A DNA stretch of 64,000 bases from assembly GCA_020439745.1 (NCBI GenBank), contig JAGQSC010000029.1, positions 124,001 through 188,000 of the forward strand, read 5' to 3'. The notes beneath the pieces are model-generated. The model had not been told where the DNA came from. It worked only from the letters and a program-made list of their open reading frames with translations, and did no database searches. Both the position numbers and the translations under genes were made by a program. Positions 32,755 to 41,969 of the stretch are shown one piece after another (the stretch's first letter is position 1; every line of letters begins with the position of its first letter). The stretch is from Acidobacteriota bacterium (GTDB taxonomy: Bacteria; Acidobacteriota; Holophagae; Acanthopleuribacterales; Acanthopleuribacteraceae).

Positions 32755-34869
32755 CTAGTTCAGTTGAACGACGCCGGCCTTGATGGCCACGTTCGCGGTT
32801 CCCGTGATGGAGATGCCGGTGGGTGAAACGGAAATTTTGTTGCCGCCCACTTCGATATTCACCGAGGCCGTGGACTTAATGGTGACACCTGTTTTGCCTT
32901 CCAAACCAGCCGATGCATCTGTTTTGAGGGTCATCCCAGTTTTGGATTGAAGGCCACAGTCACCATCGGTTTTGACACCGAAACCCATGGCCCCAATTTC
33001 GAAGCCGGCACTCTTTGATTTCACGGCGTACTTGTCTTTGGCTTCAAGTCCAATGTGCCGATCAGCCTTGGTGAAGTGGTCCTTTTTGACGTCGATAGAC
33101 TGAGAGCCAGTGTTCACCTTGATGGTGTAGTCGCCATCTTCCACTTCACAGTTTTTGTGGTTCTTAATTTTGGTTTGGTAGGAACCTTTGTCGACGAATT
33201 CCTTGACGTCACCCGAACGCACTTTGAGGGTCACGTTCTTTTCGACGGTGCGCGCCCACTCGCCCTTGTCGACGAGGACGGTGTAGTCGCCCTCTTCAAC
33301 GGTGGTTGATTTGTGGCGGTGCACCGTTTCAGTGAAGTCGTGCCGTACATTCAATGTTTTGTCGTTTTCGACCAGAGTATCCATGTTTCGATGGGCTCGG
33401 ATATCGATGCGTTCGGCTCCGTCCTTATCGTCGAACAGAATGTGATTGTCTTTGATGGTCTTGATAATGTTCTGCCACTTTTCGGCAGGCTTGAGTGGAG
33501 CGGTGTTGGCATCGTTGTAGACGCGGCCCGTGACCACCGGTCGATCGGGATCGCCGTTCACGAAGGACACAAGCACTTCGTGACCGATGCGAGGGATCCA
33601 CTGGATGCCGTAGTCCTTGCCGGCATAGCCGTTGGATACGCGAATCCACATGGATGACTTCTCGTCTTTTTCGCCTTCGCGATCCCAATGGAACTGGATC
33701 TTGCAGCGCCCCATGTTGTCCAAGTACACCTTTTCGCCGGAGGGACCGGTTACGACTGCGGTGTGGACGCCGTACACCTTGGGGATGGGTGTGAGCCGAG
33801 CGGGCCGGAAGACCACATCGCTAGGAAACGCAATGAACCGGGTTTGGAAACGGCCTTGAATCACCTCGATGACGGTTTCGTAAAGGACCCAGCCGCGGTT
33901 GAACGCGTCATTGAAGTGCTCTTTCAAATTGAATTTGAAGCCGACTGCAAATGAGCGGCAAGAGGACTGTCCTTCAACCGATTTCAATCCAGCCAATTCA
34001 GCTTCTTTGCGGATGGTGGCCATGGTCTTACCGGTGCCGCCATCTTCGTAGTTCAAGCCGTGCGTATACTGTTCCAAATTGGGGAATGCGGGTGAGGAGC
34101 CTTCGTTGTCGTCTTTCTTGATGTCGGTGGCTGACGTGTTGTAGTTGTAGTCGTTCACCGTGAATAGGCCAGAACCCATTTGTTCGGAATAGACAAATTC
34201 TTTGACGTGCTCATGTTTGGCCACCATGAATTTGGGTGTGGGTTCCTCTGAGTAGGTGGCGTCGCTATAGGGTTTGCAATCTGAAAACGCGCTGGGGTCG
34301 TCACCTATGACCATTTCCTCTTTTTCGTGGTCATAAAAATAAAACATCCCCTCGTCTTCTAGCAGACGACTGACGAACTGAAACGAACTCTCACCGTATT
34401 GCAGGCAGTATTCTCGCTGTCGTGGACTACCGGTGATCTTCCATTTGTGGGTGACGCCGAGTCCATCCAAAACTTCTGTCACGATTTCTTTGGCGTTCTT
34501 CTTTTGGAACACCATGGACCGAACTTGTTTGGTGAGCAGCCACAGTTTGGGTCGCAGTTCTATGTCGTAGTAAAAGATCTGCTTGGTGGCATTGGGTAGA
34601 TTGCCATGACCTGTTCGCACTTGGGCGAATCGCGTGATGATGCCACTGAAAAAACGCTTTTCGGCGAGGTCATCGCCCACTTTGAGCACCAACTTTGCCG
34701 ATGCGTTCAGCATGGAAGCAAAATCGATGGCAGGTTGATCGGTTTTGACTTGAGCCTTAACGACGTAGATGCGAGACATGGTCTCCTGCACCTTCATCTC
34801 GACCACTTCGAGTTCGCCGCCTGGGCCCTCCCAAAGGATGTCAGCTACGTTGTGTTTGATAGAAGACAC
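32755..34869 (-). CDS. vgrG: Type VI secretion spike protein VgrG (TssI)
   Basis: A 704-residue trimeric spike protein. The gp27-like part covers about residues 1-380 (with VSRLLEDEGMFYFYDHEKEEMVIGD), the gp5-like OB-fold follows (GRCKIQFHWDREGEKDEKSS, MWIRVSNGYAGKDYGIQWIP, GHEVLVSFVNGDPDRPVVTG), and a long C-terminal beta-helix of repeated short strands ends in VVQLN. No extra toxin domain is fused. It starts with GTG after GAGGTGATC. It lies downstream of hcp, separated by a strong hairpin, and is followed by three genes for presumed spike-tip and cargo proteins. Confidence 0.97.
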   Translation of the reverse strand: MSSIKHNVADILWEGPGGELEVVEMKVQETMSRIYVVKAQVKTDQPAIDFASMLNASAKLVLKVGDDLAEKRFFSGIITRFAQVRTGHGNLPNATKQIFYYDIELRPKLWLLTKQVRSMVFQKKNAKEIVTEVLDGLGVTHKWKITGSPRQREYCLQYGESSFQFVSRLLEDEGMFYFYDHEKEEMVIGDDPSAFSDCKPYSDATYSEEPTPKFMVAKHEHVKEFVYSEQMGSGLFTVNDYNYNTSATDIKKDDNEGSSPAFPNLEQYTHGLNYEDGGTGKTMATIRKEAELAGLKSVEGQSSCRSFAVGFKFNLKEHFNDAFNRGWVLYETVIEVIQGRFQTRFIAFPSDVVFRPARLTPIPKVYGVHTAVVTGPSGEKVYLDNMGRCKIQFHWDREGEKDEKSSMWIRVSNGYAGKDYGIQWIPRIGHEVLVSFVNGDPDRPVVTGRVYNDANTAPLKPAEKWQNIIKTIKDNHILFDDKDGAERIDIRAHRNMDTLVENDKTLNVRHDFTETVHRHKSTTVEEGDYTVLVDKGEWARTVEKNVTLKVRSGDVKEFVDKGSYQTKIKNHKNCEVEDGDYTIKVNTGSQSIDVKKDHFTKADRHIGLEAKDKYAVKSKSAGFEIGAMGFGVKTDGDCGLQSKTGMTLKTDASAGLEGKTGVTIKSTASVNIEVGGNKISVSPTGISITGTANVAIKAGVVQLN

Positions 34870-34907
34870 AAGATCACCTCATTAGACTATGATAGGTAGA
34901 AGCAGGT

Positions 34908-34963
34908 ACACCTCGCCTGTGGCATTGAGTGGGGGTAGGCTTGGGATGCCGCAGGCGAGGTGT
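34908..34963 (-). promoter_or_regulatory. Long hairpin between hcp and vgrG
   Basis: ACACCTCGCCTG (34908-34919) and CAGGCGAGGTGT (34952-34963) are perfectly complementary over 12 bp, and inside them GGCAT (34921-34925) pairs with ATGCC (34946-34950). No T-run follows on the minus strand. The stem lies 20 bases after the hcp stop, and probably stabilises hcp mRNA or attenuates read-through into vgrG, so that more Hcp than VgrG is made. Confidence 0.65.
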
Positions 34964-34984
34964 GAAGTGGTTGATTAGGTCGTG

Positions 34985-35455
34985 TTAGGCGCCCAATTCC
35001 CACTTGTCTGTGTATTCGTTGCCTTCTTCGTCTTTGATCTTGATTTCTTCGAACATGAAACGTACTTCTTCCATGTCGCGGAATTTCTTGGAAGCTTCGT
35101 CGCAGGTATTGAGTTTCCAGGATGTCAAGCCAACAACTTTTACTTTTTTCATCTCATGAGCGAAGTACTTGATGATGTCGCCAGTTTTGGGGTCTGGTTT
35201 GAAGTGCGTGACGACTACGCTGGGGATCTCAAGGTTCTCGCACAGATGCTTGGCAAAAAGAGGCGAACTCTTATCGAGCTCGTGAACCATTGAGAAAAAG
35301 CCGTGTTGACGGCGGCCAGTGATGGAACCATCGCGGATATCTGTGGGCATGTCGATGCTGTAACGAAACTCGTAGCATTCGATTTGACTATCAACGTCTT
35401 TACCCTTTGCAGGACCTGGGATGCCATCAGCTTTGCAGTATGAAGAAACGGACAT
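34985..35455 (-). CDS. hcp: Type VI secretion tube protein Hcp (TssD)
   Basis: A 156-residue Hcp protein, the hexameric ring that stacks into the T6SS inner tube. The start reads SVSSYCKADGIPGPAKGKD, followed by IECYEFRYSIDMPTD, GRRQHGFFSMVHELDKSSP and VRFMFEEIKIKDEEG. ATG 35455 is set by AAAGGAGAG; the in-frame ATG at 35503 lies inside the sigma-54-type promoter. First gene of the spike operon. The T6SS baseplate, sheath and membrane genes are absent from the window, so this is an orphan hcp-vgrG island or a satellite of a cluster elsewhere. Confidence 0.96.
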   Translation of the reverse strand: MSVSSYCKADGIPGPAKGKDVDSQIECYEFRYSIDMPTDIRDGSITGRRQHGFFSMVHELDKSSPLFAKHLCENLEIPSVVVTHFKPDPKTGDIIKYFAHEMKKVKVVGLTSWKLNTCDEASKKFRDMEEVRFMFEEIKIKDEEGNEYTDKWELGA

Positions 35456-35497
35456 GTGAACTCTCCTTTGGTGTTTGTCGCAGACATCCTTGAGTAG

Positions 35498-35513
35498 AGC
35501 CAAGATCGTGCCA
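35498..35513 (-). promoter_or_regulatory. Sigma-54-type (-24/-12) promoter of hcp
   Basis: The minus strand reads TGGCAC-GATCT-TGGCT, against the RpoN consensus TGGCAC-N5-TTGCW: the -24 half is perfect and the -12 GC is at the right spacing with one mismatch. Transcription would start near 35487, about 32 bases before the hcp ATG. RpoN control of hcp operons is well known in other bacteria. Confidence 0.65.
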
Positions 35514-35639: not shown

Positions 35640-36548
35640 TCACAGGTAACTGATGTGCTCTTCAAGGAACTGGTTCAAAGAAAACGCGGCGCCAATAAAA
35701 CCTGAAAGACAGCCCGCGGCCAGCAAACCCAGCGTCCAGGTAGTGGGAAGAAATACCAGGGTAAGGTCCGCCAATAGGTTGGCGGGATGATTGGCGAGCA
35801 TACGTATAAGTAGTGTGTAGCCCAAAAGCAGCGCAACCACGCCCAGGATGGCACCCACAAGCCCTTGGAGAAATCCTTCCAGCAGAAACGGACCGCGAAT
35901 GTAGGCTCTGGATGCGCCTACCAGTTTCATGATGTCCACCTCTTCGCGACGTGCAAAAAACGTCAGTTTCAGCACATTGGAGATGGTGAAAACCGAAGCG
36001 AAAATCATGATAGCACCGAAAAGCCATCCGGCCATTTGCACTAATCGGCCGAGAAATGCGATGCGTTCAATCACGTCCTTGTCGTAACTAACTTGTTCAA
36101 CGCCCTGCTGTTGTTGCAGTTGGTCCTTTAATGCGTCGATTTGTTCGTGAGGTTGATCGGACTTAAGACGGACGCGAAAAGATGCCGGGAAAGGGTTGAT
36201 ACTGATGGACTGGGACACATCGCTGTACTGATTGAAGTCGCGTTCAAATTGTTTCTGGGCATCGGTTCGCGAAAGAAATTCGATTTTGTCAATCGATCCG
36301 TGTTGACTTAAGAACTGCTGAATGGCTTGTTGTTCCGAGTCGGTACACGAATCAGCCAAAAACACATGAAATTGCAAATTGCGTTCCCAGCCAATGGAAA
36401 GCTGGCGAAGGTTATGTCCAAGCAATAGCAGGGCACCGAGAATAAACATGGCCAAGGCAATGGTGCCAATGGAGAGTACGTTCAGAACACGAGAACGCCA
36501 GATGTTCGTAACAGCTTCGGAAAACGAAAACAGCAGATATCGGATCAT
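35640..36548 (-). CDS. ftsX: Cell division protein FtsX
   Basis: A 302-residue permease-like protein with the FtsX plan: a cytoplasmic N-terminus, one helix (about residues 22-46), a large periplasmic loop (to about 170), then three more helices. RREEVDIMKLVGASRAYIRGPF is the conserved cytoplasmic loop that contacts FtsE. FtsEX couples ATP hydrolysis to activation of peptidoglycan hydrolases at the division site. Its ATG overlaps the ftsE stop (ATGA). M23 factors encoded elsewhere in the window are possible but unproven partners. Confidence 0.93.
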   Translation of the reverse strand: MIRYLLFSFSEAVTNIWRSRVLNVLSIGTIALAMFILGALLLLGHNLRQLSIGWERNLQFHVFLADSCTDSEQQAIQQFLSQHGSIDKIEFLSRTDAQKQFERDFNQYSDVSQSISINPFPASFRVRLKSDQPHEQIDALKDQLQQQQGVEQVSYDKDVIERIAFLGRLVQMAGWLFGAIMIFASVFTISNVLKLTFFARREEVDIMKLVGASRAYIRGPFLLEGFLQGLVGAILGVVALLLGYTLLIRMLANHPANLLADLTLVFLPTTWTLGLLAAGCLSGFIGAAFSLNQFLEEHISYL

Positions 36549-37234
36549 TGAGCCATATCGAGATGGTCTTTGGGTGCTGTGTCACCAACCAGTCGACCAC
36601 TGTTAATGGTCAACACCCGCCCTTGGATGCGTTGAATCATTTCGCGGTCATGAGTAGCGATCAATACCGTTGTGCCGCGCATATTGATCTTGATAAAGAG
36701 CTTCATGATCTCTTCGGCCATTTCGGGGTCCAAGTTACCTGTGGGCTCGTCTGCAAGCAACAAAACAGGGTCATTGACGATGGCGCGGGCAATTGCCACT
36801 CGTTGTTGTTCGCCACCGGACAGTTGAAGCGGGTAGAACATGGTCTTGTGCTGCAGTCCAACCTGTTTGAGCACATTCAACGCACGACGCCTGCGCTCTT
36901 TAAGATCAACGCCCAGTGTTTTGAGAACAAAAGTGACATTTTCAAACACGGTCTTGGTTTTGATGAGCTTGAAATCCTGAAAAACCACGCCAATAGACCG
37001 GCGTAATCGCGGAATTCGATGAAGTGGCAACGATGAGACGTTTTGGCCATGAACTAATATTTGCCCCTTCGAAGAGATCTCTTCACGGATGATCAACTTG
37101 AGCAGTGTCGTCTTACCTGCACCACTGGGACCTGTGAGAAACGTGAATTCTCCGGGCTCAATGCGTAAGGACACGTCTGACAGGGTGTAACTGTCACCCG
37201 TGTATTTCTTGAAAACATGGTAGAAGCGGATCAT
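36545..37234 (-). CDS. ftsE: Cell division ATP-binding protein FtsE
   Basis: A 229-residue ABC ATPase. Walker [13 protein letters not shown], signature [14 protein letters not shown] and Walker [13 protein letters not shown] are intact, with the FtsE-like [17 protein letters not shown]-loop. It drives FtsX. GGGAGCGCC precedes the ATG, 44 bases after the upstream lytic transglycosylase gene, so slt-ftsE-ftsX are likely one unit of cell-wall genes. Confidence 0.95.
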
Positions 37235-37277: not shown

Positions 37278-39551
37278 TTACTGTGCCAGCTGTGCCATGG
37301 ATGGAACTTGAATCACTGAGTACTGCGATTGGGGCTCGTAGGTCTGTTGATAGTGGTGGTATGCGCCCATGACCTTATGGCAGTACTGCCGCGTCTCGGT
37401 ATAGGTGATATCCCACACAAATTGGAGTGGGTCATAACGATCTGCCATGGAGCGCCAGCGCTGTACTGCGTCTTCGCCTGCATTGTAGGCCGCAACAGAA
37501 TACAGGGGGACGTCGCCCAAGCTTTTGAGCAAAATATCTACATAGGCTGCACCCAAGGCCACAGATATTTCAGGGTCGTACAGATCATTGAGTTCCAGTG
37601 ATTGTCGACCGAGATCCAGGGCCACACGTTGTGCTGTAGATGGTATAAACTGCATCAGCCCGCGTGCGCTGGCTACGGATTTGGCGTCCTCTTTAAACCG
37701 ACTCTCCTCGCGGATAATGGCCAGCAACAAATAGGGGTCTACCCCTTGGCTTTCTGCACGTCTTTGGACAATGGGCGCAAACCCTTGCGGGTAAAGGAGC
37801 TGCCGAATCTCCCGTGGAACTGTTTCAAGGGGCAGCCATTGCGGCAGCGTTCTCCCTAAGATTTCAGCATGATAAATAGCAGCATTGACTCGCTGCCCTG
37901 ACAGATACCAATGAGATTTGAGCAGGTGTAGCACGGGTCTGGGCAGGCCCGTACTCTCTTGTCTCACTTCATCTGCAGCCAGATCGAAACGCCCAACATG
38001 GACCCATGTTGCGATGGACTCAGAAAGTACGGCTTTGGCTTCAGCATCGGCAATACGCCATTTGGGCGCGTGTTTGCCCAATGCCTCGCTATAGGTTCTT
38101 CGTACTTCGTCGTTGTCAGCAAGATGAAAACCATTCAATAGATCCGCAAGAGGCTCTTTGAACTCCGGAAGGGTACCGATGCCCAGATGGGCACTCTGTT
38201 TTCCTTTGTCGATTAGGGAGCGGGCTACAAGACCCGTGTAGTGATTGGGGTCGTGTTTGGCGACCTCCAACCAGGCGGCAACGGCTTCTGCTGGCCGGTT
38301 ATTGTTCCACTCAATAAGTCCTTGCCATAGGTTGAGTTCAAGCTGCTCTTTGGGATCTGGACCGAGGTTGCGGTACTTTGACAGGTGGGCGGCCGCATTT
38401 GTGGTGTCACCGAGGTGAAGTGCCCAGACCACACCGTTACGATGATAAAAACGCTGGATCCAAGCCGGTCCTTGGTGAATTTGCTCACTTAAGTCATTAA
38501 ATCCCTGGTAGTTGCCCATGCGTCTCAGGGCCAAGATCCAGAGTTTTGCGATTTCGTAGCGCCATTTTTCCTTGGGTATGGTTGACTGGGCTCGTTGCGA
38601 AAGCACGGTTACGTCGTAGTCTCGACCGACCATGAACAAGGCGCGAATATATTGGAAATGGGCCATGCCATGGTAGGGAGAACCCTCAAGTAGGGGTAGA
38701 ACGTGAGAGAACGCCTCTATCGCTTTGGCGGGATCTTCCTGTTTCAGTTTGGCGATGGACCTGAAGTAATAGGCTTTTTCCCGTGTTTTTGTAGTTGTTT
38801 TTGGATTCTCGATCAGTGCTGTGTAGCAGGCATCAGCCGCCTCAAACTGACGGTTCCGGTAATAGACCCAGGCTTGAGCTGCGAGCTCATCTGGCTTCTG
38901 CAAAAAGGACTCAGTCTCAACTTGCGCCTGGAGTTTCACGGCTTCCAATGCCTCATCGCTCGCCGGCCACTGTTGCGATAGAGTATCAACCGCCTGACGT
39001 GCTGCTGACACATTTCCAAGTCGATATTGCAGGTGAACCAATCGAATCAGTGCGGCGACGCGGGTTGATTGGGATGTTCGATTGCCGCGTAACTGGTGCA
39101 GGAGCTGAAGTGCGAGCCGGTTGTTCCCGATTTGCACGGCGCAGTCCGCCATGGCGAGCTTTTTTTCCAGCAACTGAAACCGATCACAAAGACGATCCGG
39201 GATGGATGCTAGTACTTGGTGAGCGAGATCAAAATCCTGACAACCGATCAGACTCCTTGCGTGCTCCAAGGCCAATTCTGGGTGTTTTGTATCAAGTCGT
39301 GCATAGTGAAAGGCAGCCGACTCGTAGTATTTGTGATGTAAGTGAATCCATGCCAGGGTTGTGGTGAACTGTTCGTGTTCAAATCGTGCCTTATCGGATG
39401 CTTCCAGGGTGGCCAGGACGCGTTTGGCTTCATACCAACGTTGGCTGGCCACATGTTGGCGCACTTCTTTAGCCCACTGTTGCCAGGCGAGCTCCGGCAC
39501 CTGAGCCACGAGCTGGAACGAAACAGCAATCACACAGAAGACACGACACAT
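37278..39551 (-). CDS. slt: Soluble lytic murein transglycosylase (Slt70-like)
   Basis: About 757 residues with a signal peptide (to about residue 17), a long superhelical TPR-like body (U- and L-domains) and a C-terminal goose-lysozyme-type SLT domain. The catalytic glutamate is in AIIREESRF, followed by SARGLMQFIPSTAQ and YNAGEDAVQRW. It cuts glycan strands to 1,6-anhydro-muropeptides in the periplasm. ATG 39551 avoids overlap with the HIT gene stop and follows AGGA. The gene precedes ftsEX on the same strand. Confidence 0.93.
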   Translation of the reverse strand: MCRVFCVIAVSFQLVAQVPELAWQQWAKEVRQHVASQRWYEAKRVLATLEASDKARFEHEQFTTTLAWIHLHHKYYESAAFHYARLDTKHPELALEHARSLIGCQDFDLAHQVLASIPDRLCDRFQLLEKKLAMADCAVQIGNNRLALQLLHQLRGNRTSQSTRVAALIRLVHLQYRLGNVSAARQAVDTLSQQWPASDEALEAVKLQAQVETESFLQKPDELAAQAWVYYRNRQFEAADACYTALIENPKTTTKTREKAYYFRSIAKLKQEDPAKAIEAFSHVLPLLEGSPYHGMAHFQYIRALFMVGRDYDVTVLSQRAQSTIPKEKWRYEIAKLWILALRRMGNYQGFNDLSEQIHQGPAWIQRFYHRNGVVWALHLGDTTNAAAHLSKYRNLGPDPKEQLELNLWQGLIEWNNNRPAEAVAAWLEVAKHDPNHYTGLVARSLIDKGKQSAHLGIGTLPEFKEPLADLLNGFHLADNDEVRRTYSEALGKHAPKWRIADAEAKAVLSESIATWVHVGRFDLAADEVRQESTGLPRPVLHLLKSHWYLSGQRVNAAIYHAEILGRTLPQWLPLETVPREIRQLLYPQGFAPIVQRRAESQGVDPYLLLAIIREESRFKEDAKSVASARGLMQFIPSTAQRVALDLGRQSLELNDLYDPEISVALGAAYVDILLKSLGDVPLYSVAAYNAGEDAVQRWRSMADRYDPLQFVWDITYTETRQYCHKVMGAYHHYQQTYEPQSQYSVIQVPSMAQLAQ

Positions 39552-39556
39552 AGTGG

Positions 39557-39889
39557 TTATCCTGGCGGCCACCTCAGGGGTCGACCGCCAATGATATGGA
39601 AATGCAAATGAAATACGGATTGACCAGCTTGGGCTCCGTTGTTGGTGATGATCCGATAATCGGAAAGGCCCTGTTCAGCAGCAATTTGTTTAGCCCGAAA
39701 CATCAGCGTTCCAGCAAGGTGAATATCGCTCGAATCCATTTTCGAGATCGAGGCGATGGGTTTCTTGGGAATCACCAAAATATGAACAGGCGCCTGCGGA
39801 TTGATGTCCTTGAAGGCGAGAACTTCGTCGTCTTCGTAGACGATATCGGCAGGTATTTCTCGGTCTATGATTTTTTGGAAGATAGTCAA
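39557..39889 (-). CDS. HIT-family nucleotide hydrolase (HinT-like)
   Basis: A 110-residue histidine-triad protein: IPADIVYEDDEVLAFKDINPQAPVH spread over the N-terminal half, and the active-site triad HLHFHIIGG near the C-terminus. HinT-type enzymes hydrolyse adenosine phosphoramidates such as aminoacyl-AMP. The start is a TTG (39889) after GAGG. It sits in a tight run between the pseudokinase-TonB gene and slt. Confidence 0.93.
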   Translation of the reverse strand: MTIFQKIIDREIPADIVYEDDEVLAFKDINPQAPVHILVIPKKPIASISKMDSSDIHLAGTLMFRAKQIAAEQGLSDYRIITNNGAQAGQSVFHLHFHIIGGRPLRWPPG

Positions 39890-39896
39890 ACCAGCC

Positions 39897-41969
39897 TCAC
39901 ATGGCTTTGAAGTGGATACCTACGTGCGTCCAAACTTTCACTTTGACGCCCATCTTTTCGGCGGGCGAGAACTTGAGTTTGCTGGCGTGTTTTAGTGCCT
40001 TGTCAGGCATGTCATAGTCATCTTCGTAGTTGGCCATGGGATTGCGAACCATTTCAACTTCGGTGACACGGCCGCGCTCATCAACGAGAGCTTTTACCAA
40101 GAAAGTTTTTACTTCACCTTCACGCACAGCACCGTTCTTCACGGCCTTTGATGGAACGGACAAATACTTAAGGGTATCTTGCAGGACAGGCTGAGTAACC
40201 GTATCGTCGATTTCAACCAGCTCACCTTCCTCAGGAGGGGTGGCTACCTTGGTGGCTTTGTTTGGCTGTGCGGGTACGACATCCTTGGCGGCCATCGTGC
40301 TTTCCGGTTCTGGCTCGGGTTTGGTTTCGGCGGGAGTTGGCTTATTGGTGGTGGTCTTGGCCGTTTCAACTTCAGCAGGTTTATCTTCCGTTTTGGCTGG
40401 TTGCGTTTCGGCAGGAGTTGGCTTTGTGGCTGGTGGTTTTTCTTGTTGGGTCTGTTGGTTCTTGGCCTGAGCCTCACTCAATTTGGCGCGTTCTTCTTCT
40501 AATCTTTTGCGCTCTAACTCGGACTGCCGCTGAAGTTCCTCAAGCTGCCGTTGCTGTTCTTTGAGTTGAGCTTCAAGAGCGGCTCGGGCTTTGGCAGCTT
40601 CTATTTTCTCATTAATTTGATCAATCTCTGATTTGTACTGCTCGGCTTCTACTTCTTTATCGGCTTTGTTTTGTTCTTCGATCTGAGCGCGCAACGCTTC
40701 AACTTCGAGCCGTAACATCTCTTCTTTTTCTTTTTCGGCCTCAAGTTGGGCTCGTTCACGGTCCGCCAGAAGTTGTTCCTTCTGCGCCTCGAACTTTTCC
40801 TGTGTGGTGTCGGCTTCCTTCTTTGGCATCAAGAAAACCGCTGCGACGGCGACCACAACCACTGCGGCCAGAATTCCGCCAATCAAGAGCCCCTTGTTCG
40901 ACTTTTTCTCTGGGATTGAAGCCGAAACGACGCCTGACCCGGTGTGACCGGAAGCCGATGGCATGATGACTCCTGAAGTGGCAGGACTACCGCTGGGTGA
41001 AGGTAGCTTGGGCATGGCGGCCTGACCTTCAAAGACAGTTTCGCGTTCACGTTTGATCTGCGCGTTGATAGACTCAATATCCGTGCGAAAAGCGGAGTGC
41101 ATGAAGAAGGCCAAATTGAAGGTCGTAGGGCTGTATTCGCCGGAAAAGATCAAGCTTTCGATTTCACGAGCCATGACCTGAACATCGGTGTAAGCGCTGG
41201 TCGCGTCCGGCACAATAGCACCCATAAGAATCTTTGCGATGGACTCTGGGATTGGCTCCATATCGGCTGCGGTTTCGGCCGACTGGATCCGCTGTCGGGC
41301 GTCGCCGCCTCGGCCTGACGCAAAAAACTGCTGGCCTGTTAGCATTTCAAAGAGAATCAGGCCCGTTGCAAAAATGTCCAGTCTTTCGGCAGCGCCGCCC
41401 ATGGCCGATTGGCTATCGGGCAGGTAGCCGCTAAGGAATTGTTCAACTTGATTGTGGCTTGAAAGGACTGATTTGATGCCACTACTGGCTGCAAACCCCT
41501 TTAACTTGATCTCGCCTTCGTTGGTGATGAACACAAAAGCTGGATGGACCAAGCCGTGATTGATGTTCTTTGACTTGGCATAGGCAAGCGCGTTGGCCAG
41601 TTTGTTTGCAACCAACAGGGCATGATCGATAGAGAAAGGAAATCCTTCACTGCGGGATCGGTCGAGCACCGTATGTAGGCTAAAACCTTCAAGGTACTCG
41701 TAGACCGAGGCTAAGGTGGTACCTTGTTGCACAACCGTCAACTTTTTACTGACGTTCGTATGCTCCATCTTTGCCGTGATCATGCTTTGACTAGTCACCT
41801 GGTCAATGAAACCAGGGCTGGCAGAAATATCAGGGTTGATGATGTCCAATCTGACGTGTTGGGTCAGCCGCCCACCTTCTACTTCGCCTGCGCGATAAGA
41901 AGTGAACAGGGGGTGTTGTTCTTCCTGCTGTAGCAGGGTGTATTTCTCAAGCTTCTCAAAACCGGTCAT
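39897..41969 (-). CDS. Pseudokinase-transmembrane-coiled coil-TonB C-terminal domain fusion
   Basis: A 690-residue protein. Residues 5-275 have a protein-kinase fold, with DIFATGLILFEMLTG as the conserved subdomain IX. The catalytic loop reads NHGLVHPAFVFI where HRDLKPxN is expected, and the DFG position reads KGFA, so it should be catalytically dead. After a Ser/Pro linker comes one membrane helix (about 360-382), a Glu/Lys/Gln-rich coiled coil (385-510), a Pro/Thr/Lys-rich spacer like that of TonB, and a TonB C-terminal domain (610-690, with VKALVDERGRVTEVEMVRNP). It likely links a cytoplasmic binding event to an outer-membrane partner. GGAGGT precedes the ATG. Confidence 0.85.
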   Translation of the reverse strand: MTGFEKLEKYTLLQQEEQHPLFTSYRAGEVEGGRLTQHVRLDIINPDISASPGFIDQVTSQSMITAKMEHTNVSKKLTVVQQGTTLASVYEYLEGFSLHTVLDRSRSEGFPFSIDHALLVANKLANALAYAKSKNINHGLVHPAFVFITNEGEIKLKGFAASSGIKSVLSSHNQVEQFLSGYLPDSQSAMGGAAERLDIFATGLILFEMLTGQQFFASGRGGDARQRIQSAETAADMEPIPESIAKILMGAIVPDATSAYTDVQVMAREIESLIFSGEYSPTTFNLAFFMHSAFRTDIESINAQIKRERETVFEGQAAMPKLPSPSGSPATSGVIMPSASGHTGSGVVSASIPEKKSNKGLLIGGILAAVVVVAVAAVFLMPKKEADTTQEKFEAQKEQLLADRERAQLEAEKEKEEMLRLEVEALRAQIEEQNKADKEVEAEQYKSEIDQINEKIEAAKARAALEAQLKEQQRQLEELQRQSELERKRLEEERAKLSEAQAKNQQTQQEKPPATKPTPAETQPAKTEDKPAEVETAKTTTNKPTPAETKPEPEPESTMAAKDVVPAQPNKATKVATPPEEGELVEIDDTVTQPVLQDTLKYLSVPSKAVKNGAVREGEVKTFLVKALVDERGRVTEVEMVRNPMANYEDDYDMPDKALKHASKLKFSPAEKMGVKVKVWTHVGIHFKAM

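Follow-up and report, generated by a model that had tools for sequence, protein, structure and literature searches.

The window, the 64,000-nucleotide stretch of DNA analysed here, encodes a 690-residue protein in which a kinase fold that has lost its catalytic motifs is joined through a membrane helix, a coiled-coil-like helix and a proline-rich spacer to a TonB-type C-terminal domain, and this protein belongs to a family of pseudokinase-TonB proteins that is conserved in Acidobacteriota. The gene spans 39897..41969 on the minus strand, as supported by its open reading frame, Pfam matches and orthologues; all other window features given below are also on the minus strand. It starts with an ATG at 41969, preceded by a GGAGG-like ribosome-binding sequence, and ends with a TGA at 39897-39899, so that the limits and frame given in an earlier note on this DNA were right. 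We give roughly even odds to the reading that the protein is a trans-envelope scaffold, with the kinase fold as a non-catalytic docking domain on a TonB-tipped tether that is perhaps tied to peptidoglycan remodelling.

The pseudokinase domain (residues 1-280; 41130..41969), predicted to be cytoplasmic, matched Pfam Pkinase (PF00069) over residues 58-229 (E 3.9e-13; 49.8 bits against a cut-off of 31.7). An AlphaFold2 (AF2) model of residues 1-330, based on 77 aligned sequences, contained both kinase lobes (pLDDT 93.7, pTM 0.91) followed by two extra helices (residues 283-293 and 295-310). The nearest solved structures in Foldseek were Staphylococcus aureus Stk1 and Mycobacterium tuberculosis PknB and PknA (E ~1e-14 to 3e-13), and VIA gave a Z of 25.1 to PknA (4ow8), with an rmsd of 2.9 over 256 residues. 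No pseudokinase was among the top VIA rows for this domain, from which we concluded nothing. The profile match and bilobal fold bear out the preserved kinase fold proposed earlier; the motifs of an active Ser/Thr kinase were all replaced. The HRD position read H138-G139-L140 and the HRDxK Lys position was His142, both within a catalytic loop of HGLVHP in place of HRDLKP (residues 138-143; 41541..41558). At the DFG position we found G158-F159-A160 (KGFA, residues 157-160; 41490..41501), and the beta-3 Lys position was occupied by D42. The earlier note had reported loss of the HRD and DFG Asp and left out the beta-3 Lys, whose loss is an addition made here.

Across an alignment of 122 family members, an Asp at the HRD position (position 140) was never found (0/122), so that homologues with intact kinase motifs, which had been named as evidence that would overturn the idea of a dead kinase, did not turn up. 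Absence of the DFG Asp held for the window protein and failed as a family trait: the position was Gly in 60/122 sequences and Asp in 41/122, the latter in Holophagaceae-type lineages. Ser, Val, Thr, Asn, Ile, His, Leu, Arg, Trp and Cys were the residues listed at the HRDxK position, with Lys not among them, and the beta-3 position held Arg in 74/122 and Lys in 4/122, with Asp and others also occurring. Divergent members from other families, whose sequences were read directly, had likewise lost the motifs. As a control we took the other kinases encoded in the window's genome, of which 26/28 carried an HRD..N..DFG pattern, compared to none of the 122 family members; with the HRD Asp missing throughout the family, motif loss is therefore a family trait. 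The same window also encodes an ordinary kinase (L052, 57455-58033, minus strand), in which HRDLKPEN and DFG are intact. Elsewhere in the genome, two kinase-like genes that fell outside the pattern (L041, G000:C27:249643-250266; L062, G000:C36:24486-25043) may be other pseudokinases or variants that the pattern missed.

What the family conserved instead of the kinase motifs was H-G...P in the catalytic loop, G152 and PTTFN.AF; the loop read HG[FLVAC]xxP and the beta-3 strand mostly V-L-[LV]-R. Judged from these residues, the N-terminal kinase fold is predicted to be one that cannot phosphorylate, and ATP binding in the normal way is most likely absent. Since the beta-3 Lys and the HRD motif were both lost, partner docking seems a more likely role for the domain than nucleotide sensing. 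Binding of ATP or another ligand is possible, given that the P-loop Gly was retained in most members and that many have the beta-3 Arg or the DFG-position Asp. Alternatively, a membrane-anchored pseudokinase might have gained a new catalytic activity. SelO has a kinase fold without the canonical motifs and works as a transferase, the group transferred by SelO and SidJ being AMP or glutamate. SidJ is likewise a transferase whose kinase fold lacks the canonical motifs (PMC12599244). The strong conservation of HG..P in the catalytic loop would suit such an activity, but we found no conserved acidic/basic pair at the catalytic positions, where lineages differed both at beta-3 (Arg, Asp, Lys or others) and at DFG (Gly or Asp), and conservation was highest away from the cleft; we consider a new activity very improbable.

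The peak of conservation lay directly after the kinase domain, outside the cleft, in a near-invariant PTTFN[LM]AFFMH signature. In the window protein it reads SPTTFNLAFFMHSAFR (residues 280-295; 41085..41132; alignment and AF2 model) and forms part of the two extra helices of the AF2 model. PTTFN.AF was invariant in the 77 aligned members and thus better conserved than the kinase core. The position of this peak also bears on the idea that the protein is a sensor receptor, a counterpart of the PASTA kinases in which the TonB-type domain would sense an envelope signal and the pseudokinase would pass it on by allostery to an active Ser/Thr kinase. PknB dimerises through its N-lobe face, and the peak in our family fell in the helix after the kinase domain and not on that face; nor was a kinase gene found among the conserved neighbours. 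Two PASTA kinases, Stk1 and PknB, have the nearest kinase folds, the predicted topology is that of PknB (kinase inside, domain outside) and at least 26 active-looking kinases are encoded in the window's genome, all of which would fit a receptor, though on balance we think this improbable. A docking platform would probably work through the near-invariant PTTFNLAFFMH helix.

The window protein has a single strong hydrophobic segment, a membrane helix at residues 362-380 (40830..40886; mean KD hydrophobicity 2.98), and no cleavable N-terminal signal was apparent by eye. From this we infer a topology with the kinase domain inside and the TonB-type domain in the periplasm. Beyond the membrane helix are an E/Q/A/K-rich stretch (residues 386-515; 40425..40814), predicted to be periplasmic and from its composition coiled-coil-like, and an extended T/P/E-rich spacer, also recognised by composition (residues 516-600; 40170..40424). 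Because of the lengths of these helical and T/P/E-rich stretches, the chain could span the periplasm. The C-terminal domain (residues 580-690 as modelled; 39900..40232) gave an AF2 pLDDT of 95.0 with the two-layer beta-beta-alpha-beta fold of TonB C-terminal domains. Its Pfam TonB_C match (PF03544, residues 614-688, E 8e-4) was weak, at 20.2 bits for the protein alone and 25.3 bits in the genome search against a cut-off of 24.6. In Foldseek, the top 16 matches were all TonB, HasB or FusB C-terminal domains, and VIA gave a Z of 7.9 with an rmsd of 2.7-2.9 over 83-89 residues. The earlier note had described this order of parts, with a membrane helix and coiled coil leading to a TonB-like half, and had named a C-terminal domain of a different family as refuting evidence; the fold searches, and TonB_C matches in relatives, pointed to a TonB-type domain instead.

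A survey for the same fusion, also suggested earlier, yielded some 120 relatives. By a profile search with the signature region, the same architecture was found in about 85 of the 297 Acidobacteriota genomes sampled and about 25 of 80 families (families counted from the table), a few further weak matches being ordinary kinases. The family was carried by 30/33 sampled genomes of the window's class. A scan with the family alignment across 84,980 species genomes returned 108 encoded relatives, and all of the 80 that were kept were titled Acidobacteriota, except one 'uncultured bacterium'. The nearest relative was in a Holophagae metagenome-assembled genome (G001, OFTM365; 69% identity), followed by those of Sulfidibacter corallicola and Acanthopleuribacter pedis. 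Among 38 diverse members, Pfam detected Pkinase in 35 and TonB_C in 35; our own profile of the family's C-terminus matched 119/122 members, the three misses being short reading frames of 455-524 aa, and a membrane segment (hydrophobicity above 1.6) was present in 121/122. As kinase domain, TonB_C and membrane segment recur across members, the fusion is old and stable. We considered a decayed gene or single-genome oddity and rejected it on account of this conservation across the phylum. The gene is usually single-copy, and cultivated carriers include Geothrix, Sulfidibacter and Acanthopleuribacter. Second, more diverged copies occur in three genomes (L183, G220:C60; L182, G260:C257; L221, G023:C13), one of them in tandem, and in these the signature is degraded or altered (SPSPFDLACFINN, ATHFDLAFFMHE and APSTFNLAFLIH).

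A TonB-type domain raises the possibility of a regulated TonB/TolA-like energy transducer, in which ExbBD/TolQR-type motors would pull the protein, the TonB domain would bind TonB-dependent receptors and the pseudokinase would gate or localise the complex. The C-terminal domain matched receptor-bound TonB (6i97, 9dc4, 2gsk), and ExbD and TonB-dependent receptors were present in 41/41 class genomes searched, with 5 ExbD and 22 TonB-dependent receptor matches in the window's genome. A large cytosolic domain is also compatible with a Tol-type motor in GltG, an interaction partner of the Tol-type motor protein AglR (PMC3169522). The linked motor genes of TonB/TolA energy transducers were, however, lacking, as neither exbB/exbD nor tolQ/tolR was identified next to the pseudokinase-TonB gene among the neighbours compared. 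The window's genome has a dedicated tonB elsewhere, with two exbD genes as neighbours on C27, and on C60 a TonB_C gene is flanked by an exbD/tolR-like and a tolB-like gene. An SHLS motif is found in both TonB and TolA of E. coli (PMC12215075), and no family member had a His in the membrane helix (0/122). A membrane-helix His is essential in E. coli TonB; the exbD-linked TonB of the window's genome (L001, G000:C27) is without it as well. We therefore dropped the missing His as proof against motor drive, and the shared loss leaves room for motor coupling; overall, we regard an energy transducer as unlikely.

In the window, the gene order, all on the minus strand, was obgE, two genes that we take to be those for RsfS and RlmH (RsfS-like and RlmH-like), a LapB-like TPR protein, the pseudokinase-TonB gene, HIT, SLT transglycosylase, ftsE and ftsX. 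The HIT-domain protein is directly downstream (39557..39889; Pfam HIT 1.4e-28) and was a neighbour in 6/6 relatives examined in the window's family. The SLT-domain lytic transglycosylase with TPRs (37278..39572; Pfam SLT 9.5e-28) is two genes downstream in that family and was found in 5/6. FtsE and FtsX follow further downstream (35640..37234; Pfam ABC_tran, FtsX_ECD and FtsX) and were retained as neighbours only in the nearest genome, G001. Beyond ftsX, VgrG-like and Hcp-like genes (32755-35503, minus strand) suggest a type VI secretion cluster. The arrangement in Thermoanaerobaculia and a number of further families was ruvX - mltG - pseudokinase-TonB, and mltG lay directly upstream on the same strand, 56-409 bp away, in 30 loci of many families (Pfam YceG 3.6e-80 and RuvX 6.7e-38). 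At one locus (L202) the mltG-ruvX block was inverted yet still adjoined the pseudokinase-TonB gene, tail to tail. At another (L152, 2908-5838), response-regulator-like and MglA-like GTPase genes were situated between mltG and the pseudokinase gene. A CsgG/LpoB-like gene was often convergent downstream in Thermoanaerobaculia. Other lineages had different neighbours: Holophagaceae had ComEC-like, response-regulator and RNase H-like genes, one lineage (f3) had ATP synthase operon genes, and Vicinamibacteria had groEL and a PilM-like gene. Lytic transglycosylases recurring beside the pseudokinase-TonB gene are suggestive of a link to peptidoglycan remodelling, though, as neighbours vary between lineages, this may reflect inherited gene order.

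Taking fold, motif loss, conservation, architecture and gene order together, we infer that the kinase fold might serve as a cytoplasmic docking platform without phosphorylation. The membrane helix, the coiled coil and the Pro-rich spacer would together then carry the TonB-type domain across the periplasm, where it might bind an outer-membrane or peptidoglycan partner, and a cytoplasmic or inner-membrane assembly would thereby be tied to the outer envelope. We more tentatively suggest, as a speculation that is rather doubtful at present, a phylum-wide class of envelope proteins in which the dead kinase and signature helix would anchor a TonB-tipped tether that recruits or controls lytic transglycosylases, with neither phosphorylation nor proton motive force. 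If true, the state of the cytoplasm would be coupled to wall opening by a route that needs neither of the two. The recurring place beside mltG offers a concrete hypothesis for a route by which the cell wall could receive signals from the cytoplasm, and the cultivated carriers make the function testable. Bacterial pseudokinases are largely unstudied, and here a family conserved across several Acidobacteriota classes, little-studied soil and marine bacteria, joins a kinase fold to a TonB-type domain.

The bacterial pseudokinases covered by a 2025 review comprise seven annotated families plus EssB/YukC (PMC12599244). Our family is not one of the seven, and neither 'TonB' nor 'Acidobacteria' occurs in the text of the review. 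The open-access literature that we searched for pseudokinases together with TonB, Acidobacteria or Holophagae held nothing on the family, which probably represents a hitherto undescribed connection from the cell interior to the wall or outer membrane. Nearest by description are the GLW pseudokinases, which have also lost all motifs and have a membrane segment after the kinase, but GLW replaces HRD and LLLL/W stands at beta-3, compared to HG[FLVAC] and the mostly Arg-ending strand here; they are mainly proteobacterial, with no TonB domain mentioned. For ActPs1-3, CP1, DYD and DLHK, the review describes domain partners and host phyla that differ from those of our family. EssB/YukC and MviN are pseudokinase scaffolds at membranes, and MviN (ActPs3) regulates peptidoglycan synthesis, controlling wall synthesis through partner recruitment (PMC12599244). 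Our family resembles them in having a membrane-anchored kinase fold with degraded catalytic motifs; it differs in phylum and partner domains, and the review mentions neither a TonB-type domain nor the PTTFN signature for them.

PASTA kinases (PknB, Stk1, StkP) share the nearest fold and sequence, an inside kinase, a single membrane helix and an extracytoplasmic domain. They are active and carry PASTA repeats, whereas our family is predicted to be catalytically dead and the window protein had no Pfam match to PASTA repeats, with a TonB-type domain instead. TonB and TolA share the single membrane helix, the long charged or Pro-rich spacer and the C-terminal fold; unlike them, the window protein has a 310-residue cytoplasmic pseudokinase region, no linked motor genes and no SHLS motif. 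SjdR, once annotated as TonB, offers a precedent in that it shapes the septal wall (PMC8262864). The closest architecture is that of GltG (PglI) of the Myxococcus xanthus gliding machinery, with a cytosolic FHA domain, a transmembrane helix and TonB_C (PMC3169522). GltG is encoded in a cluster with its AglRQS motor partners, none of which were seen at the pseudokinase-TonB gene, and the window protein, with no Pfam match to FHA, has a pseudokinase in place of that domain. Both proteins nonetheless follow the same plan, in which a cytosolic domain, partner-binding in GltG and putatively so here, is followed by one membrane helix, a long spacer and a PF03544 TonB_C domain.
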